This document shows, piece after piece, positions 4,983 to 18,671 of a DNA stretch of 22,620 bases (position 1 is the stretch's first letter; each line of letters begins with the position of its first letter). The DNA is from a virus. The notes below the pieces were generated by a model, which had not been told where the DNA came from, ran no database searches, and saw only the letters and a list, made by a program, of their open reading frames with translations. Made by a program: the position numbers and the translations under genes. The stretch is taken from positions 1 through 22,620 of IMG/VR virus record IMGVR_UViG_3300017989_002588. The stretch is one strand, 5' to 3'.

Positions 4983-5219
4983 CTATTGATTTCTTTTATC
5001 ATTAAAATGCTTTTGTAATTTTCTCAAATCAGCAGCTAAAGCTTTTGAATTTTCAAGTTTTTTATTAGCTTTAGACTTCTTCTTTTTCTTTTTTGTTTTG
5101 ATCTCACCTTCGTGGCGTCCTTTCTTATCAAAACAAACTCGTCTGTATTTATTCCCTTTTAATGTTTCGGTTATAACCTTGCCTCCGGAATTCACACAAT
5201 TTATGAAATCTTGTGGCAT
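4983..5219 (-). CDS. Lys-rich small phage protein, 78 aa
   Basis: SD AAGGAGAGGTTT precedes ATG 5219. The N-terminal 40 residues (FINCVNSGGKVITETLKG, RRVCFDKKGRHEGE) form a small Cys-containing domain of a type I have seen repeatedly in phage and prophage hypothetical proteins. Then comes a strongly basic linker with six consecutive Lys (KKKKKKSKANKK) and a helical tail. Nucleic acid binding is plausible from charge but unproven. Confidence 0.6.
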   Translation of the reverse strand: MPQDFINCVNSGGKVITETLKGNKYRRVCFDKKGRHEGEIKTKKKKKKSKANKKLENSKALAADLRKLQKHFNDKRNQ

Positions 5220-5241
5220 AAACCTCTCCTTCCTAAAAATT

Positions 5242-5251
5242 ATGGGACCCG
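5242..5251. repeat. 10-bp element complementary to the hsp20 5' UTR
   Basis: ATGGGACCCG at 5242-5251 is the exact reverse complement of CGGGTCCCAT at 5792-5801. The first lies 15 bases after the hsp20 stop and 22 bases before the next start. The second lies in the hsp20 leader and overlaps the leader hairpin arm by four bases. In hsp20 mRNA the 3' copy could pair with the 5' leader. Confidence 0.45.
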
Positions 5252-5266
5252 CAGATATTTTAAATT

Positions 5267-5761
5267 TTAATCAATATCTATTTTAATTGGACTATCTTTA
5301 TCTTCTATCTTTTGTTTACCAATTACACAATTAACTATCCCATTTTCATAATTACATTTTATATTATCGACATCAACTTCTTTGGTAAAGTTGATAACTC
5401 GTCTAAATGATCGGCTAGAAATCTCTCTAACCAAACATTTCTTATCGTCGCTTTCATAATCCTCTTTCTTACTTCCCTTAATTAAAAGCACATTATCTTT
5501 TAATTCTAATTCCAAATCATCCTTATTAAAGTCCGCCACTGCGATTTTGACTTCATAATTATCATCAGTTTCATAAACATTTATCTTAGGCATTGAAGAT
5601 TTGGGTTGTAAATCCGTGAAAAATCTCACGTCAACATCCGTGTCCTTCAAATAATCGTCAAATCGCTTATACATCTCCTCGAAAAAATTATCGAAACGAC
5701 CGAAAATGGATAGCCCGCTCATAGAGCCAGGTCTAATCATAATATCTTTCTTATTTTTCAT
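5267..5761 (-). CDS. Hsp20/alpha-crystallin small heat shock protein
   Basis: The 164-residue chaperone should bind unfolding proteins as an oligomer without ATP. The N-terminal arm (1-56) contains FGRFDNFFEEMYKRFDDYL. The alpha-crystallin domain spans about 57-152 with PKINVYETDDNYEVKIAV (beta2-3), the DLELELKDNVLLIKGSKK strands and the family signature CNYENGIVNCVI (A-x-x-x-n-G-v-L type). A C-terminal IKI (159-161) matches the IxI anchor motif. Hsp20 genes occur in several large phages and may help fold virion or replication proteins. It has its own promoter (5807-5835) and a leader hairpin reaching into the SD GGGAGG. Confidence 0.92.
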   Translation of the reverse strand: MKNKKDIMIRPGSMSGLSIFGRFDNFFEEMYKRFDDYLKDTDVDVRFFTDLQPKSSMPKINVYETDDNYEVKIAVADFNKDDLELELKDNVLLIKGSKKEDYESDDKKCLVREISSRSFRRVINFTKEVDVDNIKCNYENGIVNCVIGKQKIEDKDSPIKIDID

Positions 5762-5772
5762 CTTTTAATCCT

Positions 5773-5795
5773 CCCGTAGTTTTTATTTCTACGGG
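5773..5795 (-). promoter_or_regulatory. leader hairpin overlapping the hsp20 SD (candidate RNA thermometer)
   Basis: CCCGTAG (5773-5779) and CTACGGG (5789-5795) form a 7-bp stem with a 9-base A/T loop. In the mRNA the 3' arm CTACGGG runs straight into AGG, so part of the SD GGGAGG is paired. The predicted start site leaves a leader of about 40 bases that is nearly all this hairpin. The location before a small heat shock gene fits the known pattern of RNA thermometers (ROSE, fourU and others), but only part of the SD is covered. The regulatory role is inferred. Confidence 0.5.
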
Positions 5796-5806
5796 TCCCA
5801 TACATA

Positions 5807-5835
5807 TAATATAATCATTAATTCACGTTTGTCAA
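5807..5835 (-). promoter_or_regulatory. promoter, type 1, for hsp20
   Basis: TTGACA (5830-5835) is followed after 15 bases by TTATATTA (5807-5814), with TAATG just upstream of the latter. Two other copies of the same architecture occur at 12875-12903 and 22101-22129. All three start ACTTGACAAA and keep TAATG-N-TTATATTA. It lies in the gap right after the stop codon of the cREC gene. Confidence 0.85.
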
Positions 5836-5838
5836 GTA

Positions 5839-6183
5839 TTAAAATGACAACTCAGAAAAAAAATCTGCATTAAAAGGTATATGAACTGCTTGAGGCAATG
5901 CTGCCATCATCCTTTTTGTTGCAGGCTCGTTCCATGAATGTATTATTATAATCGCATTATTGTTTTTGTTTTCTGGATTGTTAGCTAAATATTCAGCAAC
6001 ATCCATACCACAACCATTATCTTTTCCAAGATCGTGATCCAAAAACAGGTATCCAAACGTGCTTTCTTCTAAATATTCAATTGCTGATTGCGCGTTTTCT
6101 GTTACAGTTACATCCCACTTGGGGAATCTATCTAAAAAGAAATTGACACGGTAGCCATCATCCTCTAAAACAAAAGCCTTCAT
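5839..6183 (-). CDS. cREC-type receiver-like domain protein, 114 aa
   Basis: A free-standing receiver fold with LEDD at the N terminus (E7, D8, D9), FLDHDLGKDNGCGMDVAEYL (47-66) and IIIIHSWNEP (78-87). The LDHDLG...G-x-DVAxxL and HS-x-N motifs match the cREC ('cyclic-phosphate processing receiver') family rather than classical response regulators. That family was proposed from genome context to act in RNA repair on 2',3'-cyclic phosphate ends; I know of no firm biochemical proof. No kinase or ligase of RNA repair is visible nearby, although the phage does carry tRNAs. SD AAGGATT precedes ATG 6183. Confidence 0.7.
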   Translation of the reverse strand: MKAFVLEDDGYRVNFFLDRFPKWDVTVTENAQSAIEYLEESTFGYLFLDHDLGKDNGCGMDVAEYLANNPENKNNNAIIIIHSWNEPATKRMMAALPQAVHIPFNADFFSELSF

Positions 6184-6195
6184 AATCCTTTTCCC

Positions 6196-6507
6196 TTATT
6201 TTACTGCTTCATAAATAAATGAAGCGTATCCATATGCCCCACATATCAATACAAATAAAGCAATTCCCACAGTCCAAAATGTTTTTGACTTAACAAACAC
6301 AGAGAAACAATCCTTCGCCCTTTCCATACAATACGCATTCTTATCATCTATTTTAGATTCAACAGAATCAAATCTTTCTTTAGTATTCTCTTCCATCTTA
6401 TCAAAATGTACATTCGTTCTTGCTTCAAATTTATCAAATTTTTTACATAAATTCTCAACGTTAGTGTTGACAGTAATCAACATGTCGTGGTCTTTGCTAT
6501 CCATCAC
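6196..6507 (-). CDS. coiled-coil protein with C-terminal TM segment, 102-103 aa
   Basis: The frame opens with GTG (6507) followed by ATG (6504); SD GGAGATGAA is 5 or 8 bases away, so either could be used. Residues about 10-55 are a heptad-like helix (VENLCKKFDKFEARTNVHF; ERFDSVESKID). Residues about 75-95 (FWTVGIALFVLICGAYGYA) form one TM span near the C terminus. The layout resembles XhlA/holin-associated or tail-tape chaperone-like small proteins, but the sequence is not diagnostic. A lysis role would need an endolysin nearby, and none is seen. Confidence 0.6.
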   Translation of the reverse strand: MMDSKDHDMLITVNTNVENLCKKFDKFEARTNVHFDKMEENTKERFDSVESKIDDKNAYCMERAKDCFSVFVKSKTFWTVGIALFVLICGAYGYASFIYEAVK

Positions 6508-6558
6508 TTCATCTCCGTAATAAGATTATAGGGCTAAATTAACCAACCATCGGAGTGC

Positions 6559-6765
6559 TTAAGGAAGTTCTTCGCTTTCAATCTTCCTACCACACATAGG
6601 ACAAAACCTTACTTTAATTCCATACCTATGTACTTGGGTATATCCTTCATTAGAAGTAAGTTCCATCCAAGATAGAACCCACCCATAAGGCGGGTTCCAC
6701 TTAAATAATTCTTTATCTGCTTTTTTTAATAATTTATAGTCGTTGCAATCACAAAATTCTTTCAT
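6559..6765 (-). CDS. small zinc-ribbon protein, 68 aa
   Basis: N-terminal FCDC (residues 4-7) and C-terminal RFCPMCGRKIESEELP give two Cys pairs for one zinc ribbon. The ending FCPMCGRKI is a very common finish of small phage Zn-ribbon proteins. The middle (WNPPYGWVLSWMELTSNE, then HRYGIKVR) is probably a beta sheet carrying the knuckles. SD GAGGAATAATTA precedes ATG 6765. Function unknown. Confidence 0.7.
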   Translation of the reverse strand: MKEFCDCNDYKLLKKADKELFKWNPPYGWVLSWMELTSNEGYTQVHRYGIKVRFCPMCGRKIESEELP

Positions 6766-6779
6766 TAATTATTCCTCTA

Positions 6780-7301
6780 TTAGTGTGTAAATCCGCCACC
6801 ACTATATGCCTCGTGGAAATCATATTTTCCACCAAAGGATCTCCAACCTTCTGAAGGCCAATTCTTCATATGAGTTAATCCACTAGCGTTAACAAGATTT
6901 GTGTCCATAACGTCAAATTTTGGGAAGCTGACTGGATAGCTTTTTGATTTTGTTCCCTTATCATCTGTATCCATGCCCATTTTGAACATCTCATCATTTC
7001 TAGTGTATTTAACCGTGGAGCCCCATACTAATGGGTTCTCATTCATTTCGGCATCCTGTGTCCATCCATGAATACCAAATTCTGCAGCACCTTCCAAATA
7101 ACCTTTTTGTTCAAAACCATAGACAACTTTGGTTTTATCAGCAGTGCTTCTTTTACCTATCCAAAGTGCTCCAAAATTAGAGATTTTCATATCAAGAGCC
7201 CGTCTAATTGGTGTCTTAACATCAGTTCTTGTGTAAGCGTCTTTATCAGGTTCTGGAACCCCTACATGTGGTATTTGGTAAAATTCCCATTCATTACCCA
7301 T
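6780..7301 (-). CDS. orphan 173-aa protein, probably highly expressed
   Basis: I recognise no family. The protein is soluble, rich in Gly, Trp, Lys and Asp, with aromatic turns (KISNFGALWIGKRST, FGIHGWTQDAEMNENPLVWG) and a Gly/His tail (EAYSGGGFTH). There is no signal peptide, TM segment or Cys. It has a dedicated promoter (7358-7389), a leader hairpin and one of the strongest SDs in the window (GAGGAGGAAAG), which suggests high expression as for a structural, internal or host-takeover protein. That role is inference from expression signals only. Confidence 0.7.
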   Translation of the reverse strand: MGNEWEFYQIPHVGVPEPDKDAYTRTDVKTPIRRALDMKISNFGALWIGKRSTADKTKVVYGFEQKGYLEGAAEFGIHGWTQDAEMNENPLVWGSTVKYTRNDEMFKMGMDTDDKGTKSKSYPVSFPKFDVMDTNLVNASGLTHMKNWPSEGWRSFGGKYDFHEAYSGGGFTH

Positions 7302-7327
7302 TTCTACTTTCCTCCTCTACGTATTCT

Positions 7328-7350
7328 GAAAGGCCACATTCTTGCCTCTC
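7328..7350 (-). promoter_or_regulatory. leader hairpin at predicted 5' end of the 6780-7301 mRNA
   Basis: On the minus strand GAGAGGC (7344-7350) pairs with GCCTTTC (7328-7334), 7 bp with one G-U pair, around a 9-base loop. It begins at or within a few bases of the start site expected from the TATAAT at 7358-7363. A 5'-terminal hairpin can protect an mRNA from 5'-end-dependent decay, which would fit high expression. Confidence 0.4.
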
Positions 7351-7357
7351 TAATTAT

Positions 7358-7389
7358 ATTATATTACAAAAATCGAGATTTATTAAGAA
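7358..7389 (-). promoter_or_regulatory. promoter, type 2, for 6780-7301
   Basis: TTCTTAATAAA (7379-7389), six variable bases, then TTTTTGTAATATAAT (7358-7372). The same two boxes with identical spacing occur at 8539-8570. A perfect TATAAT forms the -10 and TTAATA, 17 bases upstream, is a weak -35. The upstream box covers the stop codon of the dCMP deaminase gene. Confidence 0.8.
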
Positions 7390-8204
7390 TTATTTTCAAT
7401 AAAATTATATAATCTTAATTTAACATCGCTATTCTCTAGCAACCACCCGCTTAATTCATCATAAAGTGCTTCGGAAGTTACTATCAATTCTTCTATACCC
7501 GCTTGTATAATTTTAATCATACATTCTTTACAAGGAACACCGCAGGTCATATACATTTTGGAACCTTTAGCGGCAATACCTAATCTAGCACACATGTTTA
7601 TACAATTAGCTTCTGCATGAGCTGCTATACAAACTTCAATTCCTTGGCCAGATTTAAACCCCATAGTTCTTCTTGGACACACACCTTCTTCTAAAACAAC
7701 ATCTTTATCTAATAAATCTGTTCGGCGATCACATCTCATTATACCACGGGGCGGGCCATTGTAACCTGTAGCAATTATTACTTTATCCTTAACTAAAATA
7801 GCACCTATTCTTCTTGATAAACACTTAGAATTTCTGGCTATCTGTCTACAGATATTGTAAAAATACTCATCCCAATTTTCTATTGGTTCATCATTCACAC
7901 TGTAATGATCTATCTCAACCATTTTAATTTCAGTAGGTGTATCGTTAATATGAACCATAACAATTGCGTTAAAAATTTTGGCGGGTAATTCCATTTCAGG
8001 ATGATTTCTTTTTACTTCATCTAAACATTGTGTATATGTGTAACCAAGAACATTACTAGTTTTTACAATATTTAAAGCATTTACCACATCTCTTTGCGCC
8101 ACAAAAGATGAACCACCATAATTAAATATTAAAGCTTCTAAATCCGTTTCTCCAACATTAAGCTTTCTGTGCTCCTCATAAAGAGCGTCCTTTTTTAATT
8201 CCAT
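7383..8204 (-). CDS. dCMP deaminase with N-terminal extension
   Basis: The 273-residue protein should convert dCMP to dUMP, feeding dTTP synthesis. The C-terminal deaminase domain (about 110-265) has the Zn site AAHAEANC (H196, E198) and GVPCKEC (C225, C228), plus the substrate-side RRIGAILVKDKVIIATGYNG, as in T4-type dCMP deaminases. Extra Cys (C158, C176, C192) may hold a second zinc, as in T4. Residues 1-110 are additional to the usual 150-190 residue enzyme and show no recognisable domain. SD AAAGGAGAGGTT precedes ATG 8204. Confidence 0.88.
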   Translation of the reverse strand: MELKKDALYEEHRKLNVGETDLEALIFNYGGSSFVAQRDVVNALNIVKTSNVLGYTYTQCLDEVKRNHPEMELPAKIFNAIVMVHINDTPTEIKMVEIDHYSVNDEPIENWDEYFYNICRQIARNSKCLSRRIGAILVKDKVIIATGYNGPPRGIMRCDRRTDLLDKDVVLEEGVCPRRTMGFKSGQGIEVCIAAHAEANCINMCARLGIAAKGSKMYMTCGVPCKECMIKIIQAGIEELIVTSEALYDELSGWLLENSDVKLRLYNFIENNS

Positions 8205-8214
8205 AACCTCTCCT

Positions 8215-8496
8215 TTAATCCTCGTCTTTTTTCAAAAAATATTCGGTTATCTCATTACTGAGTATTGGCGACCAAGATAGTTCTGCGTCATTTAAACTGT
8301 TTTTTATTTTAAATTTTTCTTCTTCAGATTCATATTGAACCAAAACAGTTCTTTCCACTGCAAAACACACTGGGCACCTGACATCTACAACAATTGCGGC
8401 TTCTTTCTCTAATGGCTTAACCATACACTTTCCCCGTACACCACAATCACATTCATAGATAATTACATTTCCCTCGTTCTTCAAAATCTTAACCAT
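8215..8496 (-). CDS. zinc-binding hypothetical protein, 93 aa
   Basis: C16, C18 and C24 (YECDCGVRGKC) and C41, C44 (VRCPVC) could coordinate zinc in a ribbon. The C-terminal half is acidic/helical (YESEEEKFKIKNSLNDAEL; EITEYFLKKDED). It is first in a two-gene unit with dCMP deaminase, ten bases apart, and has a dedicated type 2 promoter. SD GAGAGGAAAAGAAG precedes ATG 8496. A regulatory or enzyme-partner role cannot be decided. Confidence 0.65.
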   Translation of the reverse strand: MVKILKNEGNVIIYECDCGVRGKCMVKPLEKEAAIVVDVRCPVCFAVERTVLVQYESEEEKFKIKNSLNDAELSWSPILSNEITEYFLKKDED

Positions 8497-8515
8497 CTTC
8501 TTTTCCTCTCAAACC

Positions 8516-8537
8516 ATATTAGGGTTGCCCCTAATAT
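8516..8537. promoter_or_regulatory. 9-bp inverted repeat at the start site of the type 2 promoter
   Basis: ATATTAGGG (8516-8524) and CCCTAATAT (8529-8537) are perfect inverted copies with a 4-base spacer. On the minus strand the loop is GCAA, a GNRA tetraloop. It begins two bases downstream of the TATAAT and spans the expected transcription start, so it may be a repressor operator or a stable 5' hairpin. Confidence 0.5.
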
Positions 8538-8538
8538 A

Positions 8539-8570
8539 ATTATATTACAAAAAGACGGTTTTATTAAGAA
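8539..8570 (-). promoter_or_regulatory. promoter, type 2, for 8215-8496 and dCMP deaminase
   Basis: TTCTTAATAAA (8560-8570) and TTTTTGTAATATAAT (8539-8553), separated by six bases, repeat the arrangement at 7358-7389. It lies just after the stop of the radical SAM gene, which ends at 8573. Confidence 0.8.
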
Positions 8571-8572
8571 AT

Positions 8573-9322
8573 TTAGTTTCCTAGCGCTTCATACTTTATT
8601 AAATCAATAACAAAACTGTCTTCTAACACTTTTTCGTTGTATCTATCCACAATCCTGTCTTTAAATAAATCAAAATTTGCAGGGTCTGGATTCGTAAATG
8701 TAAGATAGAATTCTGCGCCCGAAGATACCAGATTATCAAAATTCTGCCAAAATATTCCCCAGTCAATTTTATTATTGGTGTTTCTGAGGTGATCTTCATT
8801 TGTAACCCCTTTAATATTTACTGCATATAATGCATTTAATCTTTTTAACTTACTTAAATCTGGGTATAATTTCTCCGTCAACAATAAATCACTATGAAAT
8901 ATAAACTGTTGAGGAAGAATATCCAAAATCTCATGCCAGTGATTAATATATAATGCTGGACTTCCACCCATCAAATGAAATACACCACATCTATATTTAC
9001 CATACGCTCTTAAGAATTCATTGAAAACTAATTGCCTGGACGTATATTTCTTATACCTACCCCATATCCCATCATTCGTTACGTAGCAATAAGGACAATT
9101 CAAATGACACCCATACAACTGAACAACAAATTGTTTAGCAATATTACCATGCATCTTATTTAATAAATAAGGATTAAGTCTTTTGGCAGCTATCTCAGGA
9201 AATTGATCATACCCACCACCACCACGATACGTATCGCATATACGAAAGTCATGGAATATATCTTCTTCCCTGACATCTTTTAATTGGCGTCCCTGTATAG
9301 GACATACTTTCCATTTATACAT
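8573..9322 (-). CDS. radical SAM protein, 249 aa
   Basis: The motif LYGCHLNCPYCYV (69-81) gives CxxxCxxC (C72, C76, C79), the [4Fe-4S] site that cleaves S-adenosylmethionine to a 5'-deoxyadenosyl radical. FHLMGGSPALY (115-125) supplies the SAM-binding GG(E/S)P-type motif. At 249 residues it covers a compact radical SAM core with no extra Fe-S domain. The substrate is unknown; QueE-like or activase-like roles are possible but the surrounding residues are not diagnostic. It starts one base after the stop of the 49-aa ORF and belongs with the methyltransferase, YkgJ-like and GP88-like genes just upstream. Confidence 0.82.
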   Translation of the reverse strand: MYKWKVCPIQGRQLKDVREEDIFHDFRICDTYRGGGGYDQFPEIAAKRLNPYLLNKMHGNIAKQFVVQLYGCHLNCPYCYVTNDGIWGRYKKYTSRQLVFNEFLRAYGKYRCGVFHLMGGSPALYINHWHEILDILPQQFIFHSDLLLTEKLYPDLSKLKRLNALYAVNIKGVTNEDHLRNTNNKIDWGIFWQNFDNLVSSGAEFYLTFTNPDPANFDLFKDRIVDRYNEKVLEDSFVIDLIKYEALGN

Positions 9323-9323
9323 C

Positions 9324-9473
9324 TTATCCCCTAAATTTTATTCCTAATTCTTCTTCCACGCGTCTTAAAACTTCTTTAGCAAACTTTTCCTGCTGAACAG
9401 GATCAAGTCCTAAATCTTCTGCCATAGCCATAAATTTACGTATTAATTCTTGTTTTTTAGTTAATTCTTCCAT
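9324..9473 (-). CDS. small helical protein, 49 aa
   Basis: ATG at 9473 lies inside the end of the methyltransferase gene (13-base overlap), and TAA is one base before the radical SAM start. The product (MEELTKKQELIRKFMAMAED ... KEVLRRVEEELGIKFRG) is charged and predicted to be two amphipathic helices. The SD is poor, so expression likely depends on coupling. Its tight fit between two genes and codon-like composition support it. It might be a partner of the radical SAM enzyme, by position only. Confidence 0.6.
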   Translation of the reverse strand: MEELTKKQELIRKFMAMAEDLGLDPVQQEKFAKEVLRRVEEELGIKFRG

Positions 9474-9937
9474 AACACACATTTATCTTTTGATTTTCTT
9501 AATTTATCCCAACCATTATTCAAAAAATAATCCACCATGCTGTCAAAATTATATTCATAAGCATCTTTGGCCGGATACATTTCTATCATAAGAACGGCAT
9601 TCCTTTTCGCGCGCGAATTCATTTCGCTCATAACTTTATATCTTGTATCCTCATCAAGAAACATAAGAATATAATTTGCCAACAATATATCATATTTCTT
9701 ATTTGGCAACGGGTCTTCTCCCAACACACACTTAAGTCCAAAATCTACAGCCATGTCTATAGGATCAACATTATACCCTAACCCCATCATATATCTGGAA
9801 TTTCTACCATTCCCACAACCTATATCCAAAACTCTGCCGGCAACTGGAAATAATTTTGTATTCTTCTTTAAATATGGGGTAGGAACATCCTTACCGCACC
9901 TCACACACCAACGGCCATTCATATATTTTCTACTCAT
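9461..9937 (-). CDS. class I SAM methyltransferase with N-terminal Cys pair
   Basis: Motif I is GRVLDIGCGNGRNSRYM (34-50), followed by YDILLANYILMFLDEDTRY (post-II/IV region) and a late-strand VLMIEMYPAKDAYEYN. An N-terminal WCVRCG (C11, C14) is probably half a zinc knuckle. At 158 residues the fold is minimal; the typical fold needs about 200, so the substrate-binding cap is small. The target is unknown. The ATG at 9937 overlaps the stop of the YkgJ-like gene (TAATG), and SD GAGG lies within that gene. Confidence 0.72.
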   Translation of the reverse strand: MSRKYMNGRWCVRCGKDVPTPYLKKNTKLFPVAGRVLDIGCGNGRNSRYMMGLGYNVDPIDMAVDFGLKCVLGEDPLPNKKYDILLANYILMFLDEDTRYKVMSEMNSRAKRNAVLMIEMYPAKDAYEYNFDSMVDYFLNNGWDKLRKSKDKCVLWKN

Positions 9938-10128
9938 TATTCCTCACAATAGTAATCTCTACAAAGTTTAGGTCTTTGTTCATATATAGTACAAACATTA
10001 TCCCCCTTTAAATAAGGACAACGTTTTCGCCATATTAATTTTTTGAAATTAAAAGACAATATAATCCTATCTCTAATATAAAGATTTCTACAACATTCAC
10101 CACATCTATCACAATCATCGTCTATCAA
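9937..10128 (-). CDS. YkgJ/UPF0153-like Cys-cluster protein, 63 aa
   Basis: Eight Cys are arranged C6-x2-C9-x2-CC (12-13), then RCPYL (C37), VCTIYEQRPKLC (C46, C56) and YYC (C61). This is the signature of the YkgJ-type CxxCxxCC family, thought to bind Zn or Fe. The member is truncated compared with the usual 90-120 residues but retains the diagnostic CPYLxxxxxCxIYExRPxxC segment. The start appears to be TTG at 10128, inside the end of the GP88-like gene. YkgJ proteins have no established activity; proximity to a radical SAM gene suggests a metal or Fe-S role. Confidence 0.75.
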   Translation of the reverse strand: MIDDDCDRCGECCRNLYIRDRIILSFNFKKLIWRKRCPYLKGDNVCTIYEQRPKLCRDYYCEE

Positions 10129-10753
10129 AACAACCTGCCTTTATTTCCCTACACACTTGACAATTTACAAAGTGTGTTATGGATGAATCTATTAAGTCAA
10201 CACAAAAAAATGGACCACAATAACCACCTCGTACTGTATAATCCGGAGAATACATCTGAGAAGTACCTTCGATATAATTTGGTATAGAAAACATACCAGA
10301 TTTACCTTCTGCATATTCTAATTTTTCTATTGTTAAAGCAAATATATTTGGCCATAATTTCCATAATTCCTCATTTCTTGTAAACCCCATTTGTACTATA
10401 TAATTTGGAACTGATTCGATAACCTCAGAAATTCTTTGTATATTTTTTGTTTCACAATCACCAGTCCCAAACCAATGTAAAATTGGTGTTTGTAAACCAT
10501 CTAACTCCTTTTCTATTTTATTTATTAATTTATTTATAGGCCAATTTATAAAACTATTATATATTTCCCACATTTCTTCTTGTGTTATATTTTTAGTCTC
10601 GAAATCATACAATGAATCATTAACAGCATAACAATATTTTCTACACGTTTTTGTAGAAAATTCACATGTTCCATTAGGAGGTAATCCTATAGGAAAAAAC
10701 ACACCCCCAGTAGCTGTAAAGGGTCTTAATATTTTCATATGTTTTCTACTCAT
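10115..10753 (-). CDS. GP88-like Cys-rich phage protein, 212 aa
   Basis: The start is placed at ATG 10753 because it overlaps the TGA of the small membrane ORF (ATGA). An upstream GTG frame to 10819 would only read the other gene out of frame. The motifs NGTCEFSTKTCRKYCYAV (C30, C37, C41), PILHWFGTGDCET (90-102) and YIVQMGFTRNEELW match the 'gene product 88' phage family, which often has the pattern C...C-x3-C-YA and HWxGxGD. More Cys close the protein (YCGPFFC; NCQVCREIKAGC). Fe-S binding is likely by the spacing. The activity of this family is not established to my knowledge. Confidence 0.65.
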   Translation of the reverse strand: MSRKHMKILRPFTATGGVFFPIGLPPNGTCEFSTKTCRKYCYAVNDSLYDFETKNITQEEMWEIYNSFINWPINKLINKIEKELDGLQTPILHWFGTGDCETKNIQRISEVIESVPNYIVQMGFTRNEELWKLWPNIFALTIEKLEYAEGKSGMFSIPNYIEGTSQMYSPDYTVRGGYCGPFFCVDLIDSSITHFVNCQVCREIKAGCFDRR

Positions 10754-10875
10754 TTTAAAATATCCCATAAAATTACAGCTAAAAGACATAACGTTATTGG
10801 GAAACCAAAAAACCACCACTTATAAAATTCAATATTATATTTTGCAGTCGTTACTATCTTCAATTCTCTATCCAT
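10750..10875 (-). CDS. 41-aa single-span membrane protein
   Basis: ATG at 10875 has a strong SD (AGGAGAGGTAG) and overlaps the end of the 71-aa gene. Residues 1-18 are polar (MDRELKIVTTAKYNIEFY), followed by KWWFFGFPITLCLLAVILWD, a TM segment with an aromatic belt. TGA overlaps the next ATG (ATGA). The ORF is below the usual length cut-off and easily missed. Function unknown. Confidence 0.65.
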   Translation of the reverse strand: MDRELKIVTTAKYNIEFYKWWFFGFPITLCLLAVILWDILK

Positions 10876-11083
10876 CTACCTCTCCTGGACCTACATCTAT
10901 AGTCAAATTACCATCTTCACGTAAATATGCTTCTTTTAAAACCTCAAAAATATAAATTTCTTCATTATCTAATTTTACAGGTGTGCCATCAGGCTCAAAC
11001 ATTCTTATCATGTTTCCAACTTTCAACTCTTTGAATTCAACACCTACCCACACACCATCTTCAAACTTTTCTATACTTCTCAT
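10868..11083 (-). CDS. conserved small phage protein (FRMFEPDG-like), 71 aa
   Basis: I choose ATG 11083 (MRSIEKFEDGVWVGVEFKEL) because AAGGAAGGTAGAT precedes it and it lies just after the methyltransferase stop; a longer frame to 11146 reads through that gene. The segment EFKELKVGNMIRMFEPDGTPV resembles small beta-rich proteins found in many phages (KxGDxFRMFEPDGxPV). No catalytic residues are apparent. Function unknown. Confidence 0.65.
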   Translation of the reverse strand: MRSIEKFEDGVWVGVEFKELKVGNMIRMFEPDGTPVKLDNEEIYIFEVLKEAYLREDGNLTIDVGPGEVDG

Positions 11084-11085
11084 AT

Positions 11086-11580
11086 CTACCTTCCTTCCAC
11101 TATCCCTATGGTACAATGTTGTGCACCACCATGAGCAAAAACACATAATTCTTTTAAATCAAAACCTCTTTTTCTACCCATAAACGTCGAATGATAACCA
11201 AAACTTATAACAATACCATCATCTTCCAGGATTTTTGGTATCTCATCAGCTATCAATTTGAATCTGCTATTGAGATTTCCATTATACATTTCCATTGATT
11301 TGCGATATGAATAAGGTGGATCTAATAAAATAGTGTCAAACTTATCTTCTGAATTATGTTCTGCCCATCCTCTTACAAATTCCAATGCGTCAAAATTAAA
11401 TTCAGCATTCATGGCGGGGTCCACATCATTTCTAAGTTCAGGTACATTCAACTTTGTTTTACCCGCAAAAAGATTTAAAACCATACCTTTACATCTATTT
11501 TCCACCCATTCTTTAATCTTTGGTGATTCAAATGTATATCTTTTAAGATTTGTTCTTATCAATATTACTTTAGTATCCAC
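11086..11580 (-). CDS. amino-methyltransferase (DPPY), probably DNA adenine-type
   Basis: The 164-residue protein has motif I VLNLFAGKTKL (34-44) and the catalytic motif IV LLDPPYSYRKS (86-95, D87-PP-Y90), the DPPY signature of N6-adenine and N4-cytosine methyltransferases. No target recognition domain is visible, so the enzyme is minimal and its specificity is unknown. It could also act on RNA. GTG at 11580 is used as start, overlapping the ligase TAG by one base, with SD GAGAGG. Phage methyltransferases commonly protect DNA from host restriction. Confidence 0.75.
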   Translation of the reverse strand: MDTKVILIRTNLKRYTFESPKIKEWVENRCKGMVLNLFAGKTKLNVPELRNDVDPAMNAEFNFDALEFVRGWAEHNSEDKFDTILLDPPYSYRKSMEMYNGNLNSRFKLIADEIPKILEDDGIVISFGYHSTFMGRKRGFDLKELCVFAHGGAQHCTIGIVEGR

Positions 11581-12854
11581 TATAAATCCTCTCTCACACG
11601 ATGTAATCTAGGAAATCTCATTAAACCTTTGGAACCATAATCCTGAAACTTAATCTCAACAATCTTTCCCATAAGTTCATCTATATTTTCTGTATAATAA
11701 TATCTAAATTTCAAATCATATCCCGAACCAACCTTGCAAATTTTATCATTATATGTGTGTTGACGAACCCAAAGCTTAACAAGCAGTGTTTTTGTTACCA
11801 TAACACCATCTTCTATAACAGGGAAATCATCAAACAAATAATCTACCACCGTACAATCAGCATATTGTTCACCAGTTTCACTGTCTAAAGATTCCTTTAA
11901 CTTTAAAATAGCATCCGAACGTTTAAAATTATACAACACATCAGGGTCCCTAAGCATTATGCCTTCATACCCCTCAGCAAAAGCTTTATCTAATTCCTCA
12001 TAAACATTTTCATCCTCAACTAAATGTTGATCCAACGCATGTAAATATTTCATTCCTGCCGTCATTTCTTTGGTCGGAATAGCCATTCCAGAATCGCTCT
12101 GAGTCAAAAAACTCTGCACATAGCCCACAATAAAAACGTTAAAATCAATATCGAATGCTGTACCTTGGGTAAATCCCATAACCATTCCCTGAACATCTGC
12201 AAACGCTATACCATGTTTGTAAGCTTCACCATCTACAAATGTATAACCAAACTTCTCATATAACAACTCAAGGTCATCTCTAATGTGATCTAAAGTTAAT
12301 ATTTTCTTGCCTTTACGAGTGAAAAATCCCCACTCACCCTCGTGCCTTAAAGCTATACACCTTATACCGTCAAGCTTATAAGAACATAAACGTGGTTTTC
12401 TAATAAAACTTTTTTTCTTTTTGGATTCTTCATACTTATTCGCAAGTTGCACCTCAAATTCAGGCACAATATCAGGAAAGGTTTTTAATAAATTTTTGAC
12501 ACCTATACCGCACTTCCAATTTTTATCCAAGGTTCCCAATAATAAATCCTGGGAACCCTCATTTAATTCTGATAAGATCGGAATTATAGCCTCTCGGTTT
12601 TGTTTTGGAGACTTGGATTCCTCACAAAAATCAAGAACCTCTGCAACCTTTTCCTTTACATCATTTAAACTTTTATTTCCTGGAGAAGGTATTTCTTTTT
12701 TAGCTAATTTCAAATGATAAACTCTGAATGGATCATAAGCCGCTCTGATTAAATCTCTTAGAAAATCAGAATCATAACTAACTAAAATACCACATTTCTC
12801 CGAAGGCTTACTTGTAGCCCGAACCTCACTCAACAAATTCGATAAATCTTTCAT
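11580..12854 (-). CDS. ATP-dependent DNA ligase
   Basis: The 424-residue enzyme seals nicks in duplex DNA. Motif I is SYKLDGIRCI with adenylated Lys K160. Also present are motif Ia/Ib FFTRKGKK (177-184), motif III FVDGEAY (206-212), motif IV EGIMLRD (297-303) and motif V ILKLKE (316-321). The C-terminal OB fold includes VVDYLFDD and VEIKFQD. Residues 1-150 form an extra N-terminal alpha domain, as in T4-like and archaeal/eukaryotic-type ligases. It starts its own transcription unit (promoter 12875-12903), with SD GAGGGGAAATAACT. Confidence 0.94.
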   Translation of the reverse strand: MKDLSNLLSEVRATSKPSEKCGILVSYDSDFLRDLIRAAYDPFRVYHLKLAKKEIPSPGNKSLNDVKEKVAEVLDFCEESKSPKQNREAIIPILSELNEGSQDLLLGTLDKNWKCGIGVKNLLKTFPDIVPEFEVQLANKYEESKKKKSFIRKPRLCSYKLDGIRCIALRHEGEWGFFTRKGKKILTLDHIRDDLELLYEKFGYTFVDGEAYKHGIAFADVQGMVMGFTQGTAFDIDFNVFIVGYVQSFLTQSDSGMAIPTKEMTAGMKYLHALDQHLVEDENVYEELDKAFAEGYEGIMLRDPDVLYNFKRSDAILKLKESLDSETGEQYADCTVVDYLFDDFPVIEDGVMVTKTLLVKLWVRQHTYNDKICKVGSGYDLKFRYYYTENIDELMGKIVEIKFQDYGSKGLMRFPRLHRVREDL

Positions 12855-12874
12855 AGTTATTTCCCCTCTACTTA

Positions 12875-12903
12875 TAATATAAGCATTATTTTCGATTTGT
12901 CAA
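12875..12903 (-). promoter_or_regulatory. promoter, type 1, for DNA ligase
   Basis: TTGACA (12898-12903), 15 bases, TTATATTA (12875-12882), with TAATG just before the latter. Matches the copies upstream of hsp20 and the adhesin gene. It lies in the gap between RNase HII and ligase. Confidence 0.88.
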
Positions 12904-12913
12904 GTAACTTTTT

Positions 12914-13561
12914 CTATTTTCCCACTCTTTTATAGCTTAATCTATGGTACGGACACGGCCCGTACTTTTTTAAAGCTGTTAAATGGGATTTTGTTAAATA
13001 TCCCTTGTTCTTATCCCAATCATAGATCGGGAATTTCTTATGTAAACTTCTCATTATATTATCTCTTGTTACCTTGGCAACAATACTTGCTGCAGCAACA
13101 GAAATTGATTTGTTATCTCCTTTTATTATTTGTCTTTGGGGAATCGTAGTTCTTAATTCGACCCTCCCATCAATCAGAAGGTAATCACAACTCTCTAAAT
13201 CATACACCGCTTTGCTCATAGCCAACCTAGTGGCCTCCAAAATATTTATCTCATCAATTATATCATTGTTAATAATCCCTATACCATAATTACAGACTTT
13301 GACCAAATCTTCGTAAGCTTCCTCACGTCGTTTCGCTGTTAATTTTTTGGAATCTTTTACTTTACCGGCTTCTAATAAAGTTTTAACATGCCCATTAGGA
13401 ATAATTACAGCCGCAGCTACAACTGGGCCGGCTCCTGGACCATATCCAACCTCATCTACACCAGCAATATATTGAAAACCTTTATTAATAGCGGACATTT
13501 CTAAGGAATAATCAGGAAGCTTGCCGTTCTTGTTAAGCTTTCCGTTATTATTTTTAGCCAT
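12914..13561 (-). CDS. rnhB: ribonuclease HII
   Basis: The 215-residue enzyme cuts RNA in RNA/DNA hybrids and at ribonucleotides in DNA. Catalytic residues are D36 and E37 in AGVDEVGYGPGAGPVVAAAV, D131 in LLIDGRVEL and D167 in SIVAKVTRDN. The Lys/Ser region KVKDSKKLTAKRRE is also present. The usual GRG of family members (GVDEAGRGPLAGP) is GYG here (39-41); in known RNase HII this loop contacts the ribonucleotide, so specificity may be altered. A basic Asn/Lys-rich 20-residue N terminus precedes the core. It could remove primers or misincorporated rNMPs together with PolA and ligase. Confidence 0.92.
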   Translation of the reverse strand: MAKNNNGKLNKNGKLPDYSLEMSAINKGFQYIAGVDEVGYGPGAGPVVAAAVIIPNGHVKTLLEAGKVKDSKKLTAKRREEAYEDLVKVCNYGIGIINNDIIDEINILEATRLAMSKAVYDLESCDYLLIDGRVELRTTIPQRQIIKGDNKSISVAAASIVAKVTRDNIMRSLHKKFPIYDWDKNKGYLTKSHLTALKKYGPCPYHRLSYKRVGK

Positions 13562-13570
13562 CGGCTCTCC

Positions 13571-13948
13571 TTATTTATTTTTTGTTCCAGTCGTAGTGAA
13601 TCTACTTAAGTCCCCAGTCAAAGGAAATTTTTCATTTCCGGAAGGCTTGTAAATTCTAGACTCTTTTACCTGCTCTCTTTGCTCCGCTTTTTGTTTTCTT
13701 ATTTCCTCTCTTACTCTTTTCATTTCCGCTTTTCTAGTTTGCTTATCTAACTCAATCTGAGCATGGGGAAGTCTGGTAGTAGGTAGAACCTCTTTAATTT
13801 TAATTTTCTCTGGATCGTGCTCAAACTTATCACAATGTCTTTTCTTGTTTAGAGAAACAGAAACTTTTTTAGTGATACAAAATCCTCTGTATTGTGATTT
13901 ACATTCAGCACAACGAACTTTTCTACCTTTTTTTTCTTTCTTCGCCAT
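13571..13948 (-). CDS. basic zinc-binding hypothetical protein, 125 aa
   Basis: VRCAECKSQYRGFC (11-24) and KKRHCDKF (about 35-42) offer four Cys for a zinc site. This is followed by a long Lys/Arg/Glu helix (KAEMKRVREEIRKQKAEQRE) predicted as coiled coil, and a Thr-rich tail. The small N-terminal Cys domain recurs in phage hypothetical proteins next to replication genes. Nucleic acid binding is plausible from the charge. SD GGGGGTATTATT precedes ATG 13948; the gene is ten bases before RNase HII. Confidence 0.65.
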   Translation of the reverse strand: MAKKEKKGRKVRCAECKSQYRGFCITKKVSVSLNKKRHCDKFEHDPEKIKIKEVLPTTRLPHAQIELDKQTRKAEMKRVREEIRKQKAEQREQVKESRIYKPSGNEKFPLTGDLSRFTTTGTKNK

Positions 13949-13959
13949 AATAATACCCC

Positions 13960-14553
13960 CTATCTTTTGTGAATACCTAAGTGTCGCTTAAGTTCCTTAA
14001 AATTATCAACCCTAACAAATTTACTTGCATCAAAAGAATCACGATTCCAAGGTCTAGTCATTAATATTAAACCTTTTCTCCATCGTTTCTTATATTTATA
14101 CATAGATTCAAGATGCACTTCATGATCATCAATATAACAATCAAGATTTAATGAGCGCCCAAGTGGTCCTTTTTCTCCATAACCCGTATGATGTACAGTG
14201 TTAAATGGTATACTATATTTCCTCAACCACTTGATAGTTTTTGCTTCATATCCAAGTTCTCTTGAAGTGATGAAATGAATAGAGTGACCTTGCCTAGTTA
14301 ATTCCCTTATAAGTGCTGGTGCTTCTCTGTAAGGTTTAGCTTTAATTTGGAAATCAATATCCTTCACAACACTTAAAGATTTTTTCGCTATCTCTGTGTT
14401 GTATTCTTCATCCAGTACATAAGCATTTTTAAACAAATCATGTTCCACAAAATCTTCTATCGTCCATTGTATATTAAATTCCTCGTTAATATAATTCACT
14501 AATAAGTCACCTAACGCAACTATTACCTCATCAAGATCAAATCCTAATTTCAT
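13960..14553 (-). CDS. HAD-type 5'(3')-deoxyribonucleotidase-like
   Basis: HAD motif I is GFDLDEVIVALGD (D6, D8), motif II FITSRE (T/S) and motif IV YIDDHEVHL (acidic pair), in a 197-residue protein with an alpha cap (30-80). The family is NT5C-like 5'-nucleotidases, which remove phosphate from (d)NMPs. It lies immediately after the ribonucleotide reductase gene, in line with a role in balancing dNMP/dNTP pools. SD AAGGAGGAAAA precedes ATG 14553. An alternative is a nucleic acid 3'-phosphatase, but no such signature was seen. Confidence 0.82.
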   Translation of the reverse strand: MKLGFDLDEVIVALGDLLVNYINEEFNIQWTIEDFVEHDLFKNAYVLDEEYNTEIAKKSLSVVKDIDFQIKAKPYREAPALIRELTRQGHSIHFITSRELGYEAKTIKWLRKYSIPFNTVHHTGYGEKGPLGRSLNLDCYIDDHEVHLESMYKYKKRWRKGLILMTRPWNRDSFDASKFVRVDNFKELKRHLGIHKR

Positions 14554-14562
14554 TTTTCCTCC

Positions 14563-16296
14563 TTATATATCACAAGAGCCACCCGCACATTGAGCAACCA
14601 TCATGTCTTCGGTTATTTCTTTATCTTCTAATACATGTTCTTTAACTTCCTTCTCTGAAACTCTATTCAATATTTGACCCTCTCTACTTTTATCTATGTA
14701 TACTGTTACGCCTTTTAAATCATAAATATATTCAAGCATTAAATCACTTAGCTCGTCTGGTGTTGTATCCGCTGGCATATTAATTGTCTTGGAAATAGCC
14801 CCGTCAACATATTTCTGCACAATTGCTTGTGTTTCGAAATGATCTGCCGGCTCTAAATCATCCGTATCTACATACCAATCTTCAATTTCTTTTTCTGTAC
14901 CATTCGCTAAAGCTTCTTTATAGACAGGGTGGACATACATTCTATCACTCACCCTATCAGATCTTAAATAAGCTTTGAGAAACAGTGGTTCTATACTAGA
15001 AGTAACCTCAGGTAGTAAACTAATAGTCCCTGTTGGAGCTACCGCCATTAAACTCACATTTCTAATACCGTGTTTCTTTATAGACATTCTCATAGCCGCC
15101 GGAAGAGTTCTAACAAAATGGGCTTTGCCATAATTTACTGGATCAAATTTAGGAAAAGCTCCTTTTTCAATAGCAAGCTCTATAGAAGCTTCGTATACAA
15201 TATCTCTTATAAATCTCATTAATCTTTCTATTTCGTATATAGCTTCCTTAGAACCATATCTTAGTTTTTTAGCAAATAAATATTCCGCTAATCCCATCAC
15301 GCCAATCCCTATACGTCTTCCATTATGTGCATTAATATCTATTTCTTTCAAAACATATTTATTAATGTCTATAATATTATCTAAAAATCTTACGGCCAAC
15401 CTTAAAACATATTCCATTTTCTTCCAATTAGTTGTAGTCCGGCCTTTAACAAAATTAGAAAGAACTATTGAACCCAAATCACATACACCATAAGCTCCGA
15501 GTGGAACTTCTCCACAAGGATTCGTACTTTGAATAGGATCAAAATAATATGAGTTATTACTCTGGAGATTTCTCCAGTTCAATAATCCAGGTTCGGCACA
15601 TTTAACCATGTTTTCTATAATTTTATTCCATATTTCACGAGCTTTTATAGTTCCATAATTTTGTTGAGCAAATTTAAACTGCCAATCCTTATCCGATTCC
15701 ACCGCCTCTAAAAAATCCTCATTAACAGCTACAGAAAGATTATAGTGTCTTAATTTTCCATGCGTTAATTTTGCATCTATAAATTCTAAAACATCTGGAT
15801 GAGAAACATGCATACATGCAAGAGCTGCAGCTCTTCTACTTCCACCAGACTCTATTGTATTTGCAAGAGCATCTGATGATTCTAGAAAACTAACTGGGCC
15901 TGATGAATTACCACCTTTTCCCTTTATAGCTGTACCCCTTGGTCTTAGATAGGAAAAATTACAACCTACACCGCCGCCTTCGCTCCATAAAATTAAAGCA
16001 TCTTTCATAAATTGTCCTATCTCTTCTATTGAATCTCCTATAGGCAGAACATAACAATTAAATAATGATCCTCTTGCCCGTCTCGTATTTCTCAAAATTC
16101 TTCCGCCTGGGAGAAAATCCATATTATATATCATTTCAGAAAAATCCTCGATATATTTAAGAGCATTTCCATTTTCAACTCTGCCGGCTTCTGAACCTAC
16201 TCTTTGTGCACAATCCTCCCACGTTTCTCCTTCCATAAAATATCTATTTTCAGCAATGGTTGTTGCATTAACACTTAGTTTATCATTTCCACTCAT
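14563..16296 (-). CDS. nrdJ: adenosylcobalamin-dependent ribonucleotide reductase (class II)
   Basis: The 577-residue enzyme reduces ribonucleotides to deoxyribonucleotides with a coenzyme B12 radical. C81 (FNCYVLP) and C272 (VCDLGSI) are the redox pair, and C261 in NPCGE (259-263) is the thiyl radical Cys with N259 and E263. The 11-residue spacing of C261 and C272 matches class II enzymes, unlike class I. LRPRGTAIKGKGGNSSGPVS, VAPTGTISLLPEVTSSIEP and a C-terminal CAGGSC pair for thioredoxin-type re-reduction are present. There is no ATP-cone and no R2/NrdB gene. The short length is common in phage NrdJ. It needs B12 from the host. Confidence 0.95.
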   Translation of the reverse strand: MSGNDKLSVNATTIAENRYFMEGETWEDCAQRVGSEAGRVENGNALKYIEDFSEMIYNMDFLPGGRILRNTRRARGSLFNCYVLPIGDSIEEIGQFMKDALILWSEGGGVGCNFSYLRPRGTAIKGKGGNSSGPVSFLESSDALANTIESGGSRRAAALACMHVSHPDVLEFIDAKLTHGKLRHYNLSVAVNEDFLEAVESDKDWQFKFAQQNYGTIKAREIWNKIIENMVKCAEPGLLNWRNLQSNNSYYFDPIQSTNPCGEVPLGAYGVCDLGSIVLSNFVKGRTTTNWKKMEYVLRLAVRFLDNIIDINKYVLKEIDINAHNGRRIGIGVMGLAEYLFAKKLRYGSKEAIYEIERLMRFIRDIVYEASIELAIEKGAFPKFDPVNYGKAHFVRTLPAAMRMSIKKHGIRNVSLMAVAPTGTISLLPEVTSSIEPLFLKAYLRSDRVSDRMYVHPVYKEALANGTEKEIEDWYVDTDDLEPADHFETQAIVQKYVDGAISKTINMPADTTPDELSDLMLEYIYDLKGVTVYIDKSREGQILNRVSEKEVKEHVLEDKEITEDMMVAQCAGGSCDI

Positions 16297-16317
16297 ATTA
16301 TTCTTCTCCTTTTATTT

Positions 16318-16761
16318 TTAAATACCAGTTGATCCAAATCCACGTGGACCTCTAACGCTACTACCCAATTCATCATCACCAACATCAAGAAAATGACCTA
16401 TAAACACAGGAGAAAACTTCATTTGCGCTACTCTATCACCTTCCTTGATAGCCACAGGTTCATTTCCTAAATTTATCAAAGGTATTTTTACCTCCCCACG
16501 ATAACCAGAATCAATAGTTGCCGGAGTATTTACTATGGTTAATCCTTTCTTAAGAGCCCAACCACTTCTTGGTCGTACTTGAGCTTCAAATCCTTCAGGA
16601 ATTTCCATGGCAAAACCCGTTCTTGCTAAACACCTATGTCCTGGTTTTAATATGTAATCCTCAATAACATACAAATCACAACAAGCATCTCCTCTTTTAG
16701 AATAAGTAGGAGCTTTAGCCTTATCACTTAATTTTTTAAAATAAATTCTTAAATTATTCAT
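16318..16761 (-). CDS. dut: dUTP diphosphatase (dUTPase), trimeric type
   Basis: ATG 16761 is chosen because it overlaps the polymerase TAA (TAATG); a 10-residue longer frame has no better SD. All five family motifs are present in 147 residues: GDACCDLY (24-31), VRPRSGWAL (62-70), TIDSGYRGEVKIPL (82-95, D84 and Y87), GDRVAQMKF (108-116) and RGPRGFGSTGI (137-147). It hydrolyses dUTP to dUMP plus pyrophosphate, keeping uracil out of DNA and supplying thymidylate synthesis. It works with the UDG and dCMP deaminase in this window. Confidence 0.96.
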   Translation of the reverse strand: MNNLRIYFKKLSDKAKAPTYSKRGDACCDLYVIEDYILKPGHRCLARTGFAMEIPEGFEAQVRPRSGWALKKGLTIVNTPATIDSGYRGEVKIPLINLGNEPVAIKEGDRVAQMKFSPVFIGHFLDVGDDELGSSVRGPRGFGSTGI

Positions 16762-18671
16762 TATTTTATTAATCCTCCACACTTTCCACAAATTACATCA
16801 CCATTATCATTTAAAACCATTTCTGTATGACCACATTCCTCGTCATTAATCTTATTCTCACAAGAATTTTTGAGCCAACATGGGCCAATCAATCCATCTG
16901 TTTCCATAGGAATTAAATGAAAATATGCACCAAAACCATCGATCAAAGATTTTTCTATAATCTTCCGCACCTCATATCTTTGATCATATTTTGCTTCCAC
17001 AACAACCTCATCATGAACACTCAACAACAACCGTGCATCATATTCACTTTTCTCTAATCTATCTACCAAATAAATCATTGATTGTTTGATTGTATCAGCA
17101 TTTCCACCTTGAATAGGCTGATTAGTTCCTTTCCTTTCAACAGCAGCACAAACTTTTTTGTATTCAGGGTGATTGTAAGGTGGAATATTGTAAAATCTTT
17201 TTCGTCCACTAATAGACATACTATATCTATTTCTCACAGCATCTCTTTTAGAACGAGTCAAATAATCTTTAATCCCTCTATATCTTTCAAAGTAAGCATC
17301 TAAAGTTTCTTCTGCTTCTTTCTCATGAATACCCAATCTACGAGCAAGCCCAAACTTAGACAACCCATAAGGAATACCAAAGTTAATTGCTTTAGCAGCG
17401 TCTCTCATTGGCCTTGTGACTTCATCTATACCTATCCCTCTAATTTCTGAAATGGTACGTCTGTGCAAATCAATACCTTTTTTAAAACAATCAATAAAAA
17501 TAGGATCTTGAGATAAATTCCCTAATATTCTTAACTCTGCACCAGACATATCAGCAGTTATTAAACAATATCCATCTTTGGAAACAAAACAATTTCTATA
17601 TTTTTGCTTCTTGGGAATATTTTGAAGATTAGGATCAGAGCTACTTAACCGGCCGGTGGAAACCATTTGCTTAAACCCTGTATGTAATCTTCCAGTTACT
17701 TCGTTAATTCGCGCTATCAAACTTTCACCATATGTAGAAATAAACTTTTGGGCTTTTCTATAATTTAATAATGCATCTATAACTGGCAAACCTTTGTACT
17801 TCTGTAAGGTTCCAACAGCTGTATCAGGTAAGTCTAATCCGTGTTTGTTTAAAATCTTTTTCAACTGCACATTACTATCGATATTTATTAAAGATACTCC
17901 AAATAATGTCGTTTGACTTTCATGTTGAGATAAAATCTTAATTACCTCTTCTCCATATTCCTTTTTCTCTGCTCCGATTTCATCTAAAATTTTTCTCTGT
18001 CTATTTGCATCTAAAATAATACCATTCAATTCCATTTCGCACATAGGCTTTGTGAACTCAAATTCCAACCTACAAACATCATGGAAATTATGTTGATCTA
18101 TTTTTGGTAATTGAAGATCTCTTATCAAACGCAGTACAGAAACATCATTACCAGCATATTCTAATTGAAAAGGTTTAAACACTTGATTGTAATTCATAAA
18201 TGTACCACGTGGTTCTTTTTCCATCGTCAAACCAAGATATCTAAACACCAAAGCTTCCAAACTATATTTAGATTTCTTTCCCAAATAAAGTAATTGTTCA
18301 ACCAACATTGTATCATAAATATTTTCTATATAAAAACCAAAATGAAGCTTAATCATTTTCATATCAAACACAGCATTCTGCAAAAGTCTAAGTTGATTAT
18401 TCCCTGTAAGAATAGGTTTCAACACCTGCGGATCAACTGTGCTGTGATCTGTATCATTTCTTACATCAAATATATAACACCTATTAGGCAAACCTATTTG
18501 AACTAAAGATATTTTACCCGCATAAGGATCTAATGCTGTTGTTTCTGTATCAACCTCTATGATAGGATATTTACTTATATCTTCTACCGCCAACCTAGCT
18601 TCTTCATTTGTTGTTATATATGTGTAATTAGGTTTAGGTAATCCAATTACGTCTACTTCAAAAACACTCAT
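16761..18671 (-). CDS. family A DNA polymerase with 3'-5' exonuclease and C-terminal zinc ribbon
   Basis: The 636-residue replicase or repair polymerase has a proofreading exonuclease with Exo I VDTETTAL (D41, E43), Exo II NAVFDMKMI (D103) and Exo III YAGNDVSVL (D176). Polymerase motif A is DMSGAELRIL (D374), B is RDAAKAINFGIPYG (R423, K427, F431, Y435) and C is SVHDEVVV (H553-D554-E555). No 5'-3' exonuclease domain is fused. A tail after the polymerase core has ECGHTE (C613, H615) and VICGKCGG (C628, C631), a zinc ribbon not usual in the family. The start overlaps the clamp loader stop by TAATG. Confidence 0.96.
   Translation of the reverse strand: MSVFEVDVIGLPKPNYTYITTNEEARLAVEDISKYPIIEVDTETTALDPYAGKISLVQIGLPNRCYIFDVRNDTDHSTVDPQVLKPILTGNNQLRLLQNAVFDMKMIKLHFGFYIENIYDTMLVEQLLYLGKKSKYSLEALVFRYLGLTMEKEPRGTFMNYNQVFKPFQLEYAGNDVSVLRLIRDLQLPKIDQHNFHDVCRLEFEFTKPMCEMELNGIILDANRQRKILDEIGAEKKEYGEEVIKILSQHESQTTLFGVSLINIDSNVQLKKILNKHGLDLPDTAVGTLQKYKGLPVIDALLNYRKAQKFISTYGESLIARINEVTGRLHTGFKQMVSTGRLSSSDPNLQNIPKKQKYRNCFVSKDGYCLITADMSGAELRILGNLSQDPIFIDCFKKGIDLHRRTISEIRGIGIDEVTRPMRDAAKAINFGIPYGLSKFGLARRLGIHEKEAEETLDAYFERYRGIKDYLTRSKRDAVRNRYSMSISGRKRFYNIPPYNHPEYKKVCAAVERKGTNQPIQGGNADTIKQSMIYLVDRLEKSEYDARLLLSVHDEVVVEAKYDQRYEVRKIIEKSLIDGFGAYFHLIPMETDGLIGPCWLKNSCENKINDEECGHTEMVLNDNGDVICGKCGGLIK

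Follow-up and report, generated by a model that had tools for sequence, protein, structure and literature searches.

A conserved element that occurs twice in a 22.6-kb DNA fragment from an uncultured virus (an IMG/VR record; this whole stretch of DNA is referred to as the window) is best explained as an ordinary host promoter of the sigma70/sigmaA type, joined to a 5' hairpin that would protect the mRNA, and specific to individual genes. We assign this explanation a probability of roughly one-half. Nearly all genes of the window lie on the minus strand. Its genes include those for a DNA polymerase of the A family, a clamp loader, ribonucleotide reductase, RNase HII, ligase, dCMP deaminase and an Hsp20-like protein, as well as three tRNAs; some of these names come from reading the translations. 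The Rfam matches in the window were limited to the tRNAs.

The pattern TTCTTAATAAA-N6-TTTTTGTAATATAAT matches the window exactly twice, at 7389-7358 (copy 1) and 8570-8539 (copy 2), both on the minus strand. These remained the sole matches with up to three mismatches allowed, and no match was obtained in 100 dinucleotide shuffles. A first-pass annotation had reported both sites, with 26 conserved positions out of 32; its locations and N6 spacing hold, and the correct count is 27 of 32, with one base of the "N6" also agreeing. All five differences fall inside the six-base spacer. A simple sigma70 scan reads each site as TTAATA-N17-TATAAT. In copy 1, the -35 element TTAATA (7381-7386, within CTTAATAAA) shares bases with the dCMP deaminase stop codon (7385-7383), and the T-run, TG element and -10 hexamer, TTTTTGTAATATAAT, occupy 7358-7372, with TATAAT at 7358-7363. 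The corresponding parts of copy 2 are found at 8562-8567 and 8539-8553, with TATAAT at 8539-8544. The claim that both sites sit at the 3' end of the upstream gene holds for copy 1 and needs refining for copy 2, which starts 2 bases past the stop of a radical-SAM gene (8573).

Copy 1 is proposed to drive a 173-aa gene (6780-7301, minus strand), after which comes a 68-aa gene (6559-6765, minus strand). Copy 2 is proposed to drive a 93-aa gene (8215-8496, minus strand), the zinc-ribbon-like product of which has four invariant cysteines, with the dCMP deaminase gene (7383-8204, minus strand) second in the unit. The 173-aa protein had no match in Pfam or PHROG, nothing credible in a PDB profile search, and no counterpart in isolated phages or in GTDB genomes; its AlphaFold model was unusable (mean pLDDT, 39.9). 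Several open reading frames are far longer in relatives than in the window: ribonucleotide reductase (1,222 versus 577 aa), the polymerase (1,076 versus 636 aa) and the deaminase (680 versus 273 aa). The long frames (G005:191366-195034, G005:197880-201110 and the G018 deaminase on L095) probably contain inteins or insertions.

Relatives of the virus were gathered via the polymerase and the 173-aa protein; the nearest of them, G001 (45.8 kb), is syntenic with the window. The element was found upstream of the 173-aa ortholog in 11 genomes (the window, G001, G003, G005, G009 to G014, and G016), right behind the preceding gene and in front of orthologs of 43 to 65% identity. An IMG/VR-wide scan with TGTACTATAN{7,8}TAGAGGG showed that G014, G016, and G018 have a copy ahead of the 93-aa gene. 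Both copies are present in G014 and G016, just as in the window. In G018 the sole copy precedes the 93-aa gene, and the 173-aa gene lies directly behind the deaminase gene. The sole copy of G001, G003, G005, and G009 precedes the 173-aa gene, and no promoter element was seen at the 93-aa gene of these four genomes. One extra copy was found in G019, in front of a gene for a sliding-clamp-like protein, the ortholog of which in G009 instead follows a promoter of another kind, type 1, described below. The exact 32-base pattern had no match in an IMG/VR scan, because the relatives diverge in the box and the spacer. The conservation in relatives bears out the view that the sites are promoters under selection, placed in front of short units and differing in detail from type 1.

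A profile built from 15 sites was scanned over approximately 1.43 Mb of related phage contigs. Element sites scored 23.7 to 38.9 bits, and other matches scored at most 16.8; at that low cutoff there were 32 matches in all versus 26 in shuffled sequence. The sites in G010 and G012 scored just 14 to 15 on account of a gap one base longer, 8 instead of 7. The motif search that the first-pass annotation had proposed as a check thus yielded no further copy inside the window and further copies in relatives. The temporal regulation that it read from two promoter classes is not favored, and a genome-wide temporal class is rejected, since strong matches occur at only two (rarely three) genes, with one or two per genome. 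The element is gene-specific, dedicated to those genes.

Type 1 promoters, CTTGACAAA...TG-N2-3-TATATT, form a many-copy, family-wide class of the sigma70 type. In the window their TTGACA begins at 5835, 12903 and 22129 on the minus strand (-35/-10 at 5830-5835/5808-5813, 12898-12903/12876-12881 and 22124-22129/22102-22107), and they are also present in G003, G005, G010, G013, and others. The family-wide consensus is C-TTGACA-AA...TG-N2-3-TATANT. In the element described here (type 2), the box is C-TTAAYA-AA in the window, in G014 and in that G016 copy which precedes the 93-aa gene, and T-TTAACA-AA in G001; the C-TTAAYA-AA form lies one or two changes away from the type 1 box. A TG lies 2 to 3 bases ahead of the -10 hexamer in 55 of 71 type 1 sites and 3 bases ahead of it in type 2. 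Because TTGACA served to collect the type 1 sites, a comparison of -35 strength is circular, which leaves only the shared flanks and the TG as fair evidence.

In a set of 15 type 2 sites, an average of 3.47 of 6 positions agreed with TTGACA at a spacing of 17, as opposed to 0.7 to 2.3 at other spacings, and the mean best match over spacings of 16 to 18 was reached by none of 5,000 shuffles. A -35 hexamer is thus found within the usual 16 to 18 bases, namely TTAATA at 17, weaker than the consensus; a perfect -35 was found at none of the type 2 sites. The -10 hexamer is close to TATAAT, being TATAAT in both window copies and TATAAT, TATACT, TATAGT or TATATA in relatives, four of which have TATATA in this register. 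The canonical extended -10, an optional feature in which TG lies one base before the hexamer, is absent, the TG being 3 bases away. The string TGTAMTATA is invariant at eight positions, with one A/C position, over 16 sites, which exceeds what sigma70 requires. TGTAA is found in all window and G001 sites, and TGTAC in all those of other genomes. Judged by its sequence, the upstream box is most plausibly a weakened -35, which would make types 1 and 2 variants of one sigma70-type grammar. The suggestion in the first-pass annotation of a distinct class served by an alternative sigma factor or an activator is not favored, given the -35-like hexamer at a 17-base spacing and the TG and TATANT common to type 1.

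What is new here is that the conserved block runs on into TAGAGG and that a hairpin is predicted in the leader at most sites. Conservation extends past the -10 to TAGAGG, and the transcription start was therefore placed at its first A, at 7351 in copy 1 (the A of TAGAGAGG, also supported by the distance from the -10) and at 8532 in copy 2 (the A of TAGGGG), both on the minus strand; the starts predicted earlier near these positions are the same. The predicted transcript opens with a hairpin at 14 of 16 type 2 sites (all but those of G018 and G019), as opposed to 15 of 61 type 1 leaders (Fisher test, 7e-6). The median fold was -7.75 kcal/mol for type 2 and -1.0 kcal/mol for type 1 leaders. Comparison with shuffles of each leader gave a combined p of 2e-8, a value computed as if the sites were independent, although their relatedness makes them not fully so.

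In copy 1 the predicted hairpin is GAGAGGC-N9-GCCTTTC (7328-7350, minus strand, -9.6 kcal/mol). In copy 2 it is AGGG-GCAA-CCCT (8521-8532, minus strand, -5.8 kcal/mol counted from the predicted start), or a longer one, 8517-8536, if transcription starts further upstream. Arm sequences vary while pairing is preserved (GAGAGGC/GCCTTTC, AGGG/CCCT, CAGGGTT/AACCCTG, GAGGG/CCCTC, GGTCC/GGACC, GAGGC/GCCTC, CGGGG/CCCCG), and loops span 3 to 11 bases. This covariation was judged from a list of the individual hairpins rather than by a formal covariation test, a MAFFT alignment of the leaders having misaligned the stems. The Shine-Dalgarno sequence lies outside the hairpin, and the ATG is at +34 to +50. 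In known bacterial mRNAs, hairpins at the 5' end impede 5'-end-dependent decay and have a stabilizing effect (PMC3997798). As a role for the leader hairpin, such protection is a better fit than that of operator, terminator or translation switch. An operator palindrome was dropped because the arm sequences are not conserved, and a terminator because no T-run follows the hairpin on the minus strand.

A hairpin also lies in the leader of the hsp20-like gene (5267-5761). It reads CCCGTAG-N9-CTACGGG and runs into the Shine-Dalgarno sequence (5762-5812, minus strand), and the G003 and G009 leaders could likewise mask theirs (CTCC...GGAG). Going by these sequences, the leader is a possible RNA thermometer for a phage Hsp20. 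The gene is also flanked by an inverted repeat: TATGGGACCCG before it is approximately the reverse complement of GCGGGTCCCATA after it (intergenic regions 5219-5267 and 5761-5839).

In the explanation we prefer, the host RNA polymerase most likely reads both type 2 sites, each of which combines a -10 of TATAAT and a TG element with a T-rich spacer of 17 bases and an imperfect -35 that reads TTAAYA in place of the TTGACA usual in the phage. At a distance of one or a few bases from the 5' end of the mRNA, a small stem-loop would form, leaving the Shine-Dalgarno sequence downstream of it free. The stem-loop most likely shields the 5' end from decay, so that the 173-aa protein and the 93-aa/dCMP deaminase unit would be expressed strongly and steadily. 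Four features count against this model: the near invariance of TGTAMTATA, the TG at 3 bases rather than 1 from the hexamer, TATATA in four relatives, and the missing hairpin in G018 and G019.

The relatives appear, from their sequences, to carry transcription machinery of their own, recalling phages AR9 and P23-45 (PMC5312081, PMC10770324). A 1,178-aa open reading frame in G005 (113000-116536, plus strand; L019:13000-16536) has weak homology to RpoB (360-472) and RpoC (816-891) and an LDFDGD motif, and the same kind of single polypeptide is encoded in G010 (88625-91915) and G011 (71265-74657); these are probable fused beta/beta' phage RNA polymerases. Giant open reading frames contain LDFDGDQ some 2,500 residues in, in G005 (near 2471, minus strand), G008 (5319-18923, plus strand, 4,534 aa) and G009 (64278-87560, plus strand, 7,760 aa). 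By analogy with Thermus phage P23-45, they possibly join a virion RNA polymerase to a giant virion protein. A protein with sigma70 region 2 (Pfam PF04542, phrog_351) is encoded in G010 (72825-73775, minus strand), G011 (57359-58114, minus strand) and G005 (133645-134418, plus strand). The phage sigma gene suspected to lie outside the window is thus present in these three relatives, and nothing links it or the RNA polymerases to the type 2 sites. An intergenic element without sigma70 layout, TWAACTAACYT..TATA..TAG, occurs above the level of shuffles in G005 (7 sites), G011 (5), G003, G009, and G010 (3 each), and others.

A sigma-like protein in three relatives would suit an unlikely alternative, in which the host RNA polymerase requires a phage activator, or a phage sigma factor, that reads TGTAMTATA, the T-run or TAGAGG, offsets the weak -35 and imposes delayed (middle) timing. 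The near invariance of the 9-mer over 16 sites, none with a perfect -35, is in line with this, as is the TGTAA/TGTAC split between genomes, which looks as if copies change together. However, the -35-like hexamer is retained at the exact sigma70 spacing, and one or two sites per genome are few for an activator regulon. The aligned sites contain no MotA box (no TGCTT), and a search with the MotA profile (PF09114) had no match, its control also being silent. The exchange of the element in G019 for a type 1 promoter in G009, before orthologous genes, also argues against an activator. A further reading that we likewise consider unlikely makes TGTAMTATA-N7-TAGAGG a separate promoter class, served by a sigma protein, activator or polymerase that the phage encodes, with a tiny, deeply conserved two-unit regulon coupled by design to the 5' mRNA hairpin.

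Quite unlikely is a promoter for a phage RNA polymerase, either the 1,178-aa enzyme or that of the giant reading frames. Related phages appear to encode such enzymes, and the virion polymerases of AR9 and P23-45 use extended AT-rich motifs with a purine start (PMC5312081, PMC10770324), but the sites have a correctly spaced sigma70-type -35, share their -10 and TG with type 1, and are too few for a main phage polymerase. The TWAACTAAC element, being of non-sigma70 type, is a better candidate for such an enzyme. As for a T7-like single-subunit polymerase, one or two sites per genome speak against it; PF00940 was not found, its control also being silent.

It is improbable that the promoter is ordinary and the hairpin regulatory, for example as a site where the 93-aa zinc-ribbon-like protein or the 173-aa protein binds for autoregulation. 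The hairpins do occupy the same position at 14 of 16 sites, in units that encode small proteins without assigned function, but, unlike in a protein-binding hairpin, the arms vary widely in sequence and the loops in both length and sequence, and the Shine-Dalgarno sequence is unmasked. In promoters of the N4 type the hairpin lies upstream of the start and has a short constant loop; here it lies downstream of the predicted start, on the wrong side, with loops of 3 to 11 bases.

In these large uncultured phages, two units thus stay under one dedicated promoter although their proteins have diverged to approximately 45% identity. That the promoter is kept despite such divergence suggests a need for high or precisely set amounts of the 173-aa protein, for which no relative is known. 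With the conserved block continuing into the leader hairpin, mRNA synthesis and stability would be coupled in one short cassette. As RNA polymerases and a sigma factor seem to be encoded within the family itself, sorting the sites into those of sigma70 type (types 1 and 2) and those of non-sigma70 type (TWAACTAAC) leads to testable predictions of which enzyme serves which promoter.

Among known systems, the early promoters of the AR9/phiKZ virion polymerases, AAATATATATTAT-N6-G or similar, occur in tens of copies per genome (PMC5312081). Like those of the P23-45 virion polymerase (PMC10770324), they resemble type 2 in having an extended AT-rich motif just before a purine start, in phages that encode RNA polymerases; they differ in sequence, whereas type 2 has a sigma70-type -35 and one or two copies per genome. 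T4 middle promoters (PMC2988021) similarly combine a good -10 with a nonconsensus -35, but they have a MotA box centered at -30, which type 2 sites lack, and type 2 sites have a -35-like hexamer at a 17-base spacing. The early "uber" UP/-35/TGn/-10 sigma70 promoters of T4 (PMC2988021) resemble type 2 in that their sigma70 hexamers are accompanied by further conserved positions and by an A-rich stretch ahead of the -35; unlike them, type 2 has a weak -35, a TG shifted by two bases, conservation into the transcript and one or two sites per genome. The ompA, papA and aprE mRNAs are stabilized by a 5' stem-loop (PMC3997798), with the hairpin a few bases from the 5' end and a single-stranded Shine-Dalgarno sequence downstream, an arrangement that is also predicted here; in contrast to those mRNAs, the predicted hairpin of type 2 is coupled to a conserved promoter sequence.
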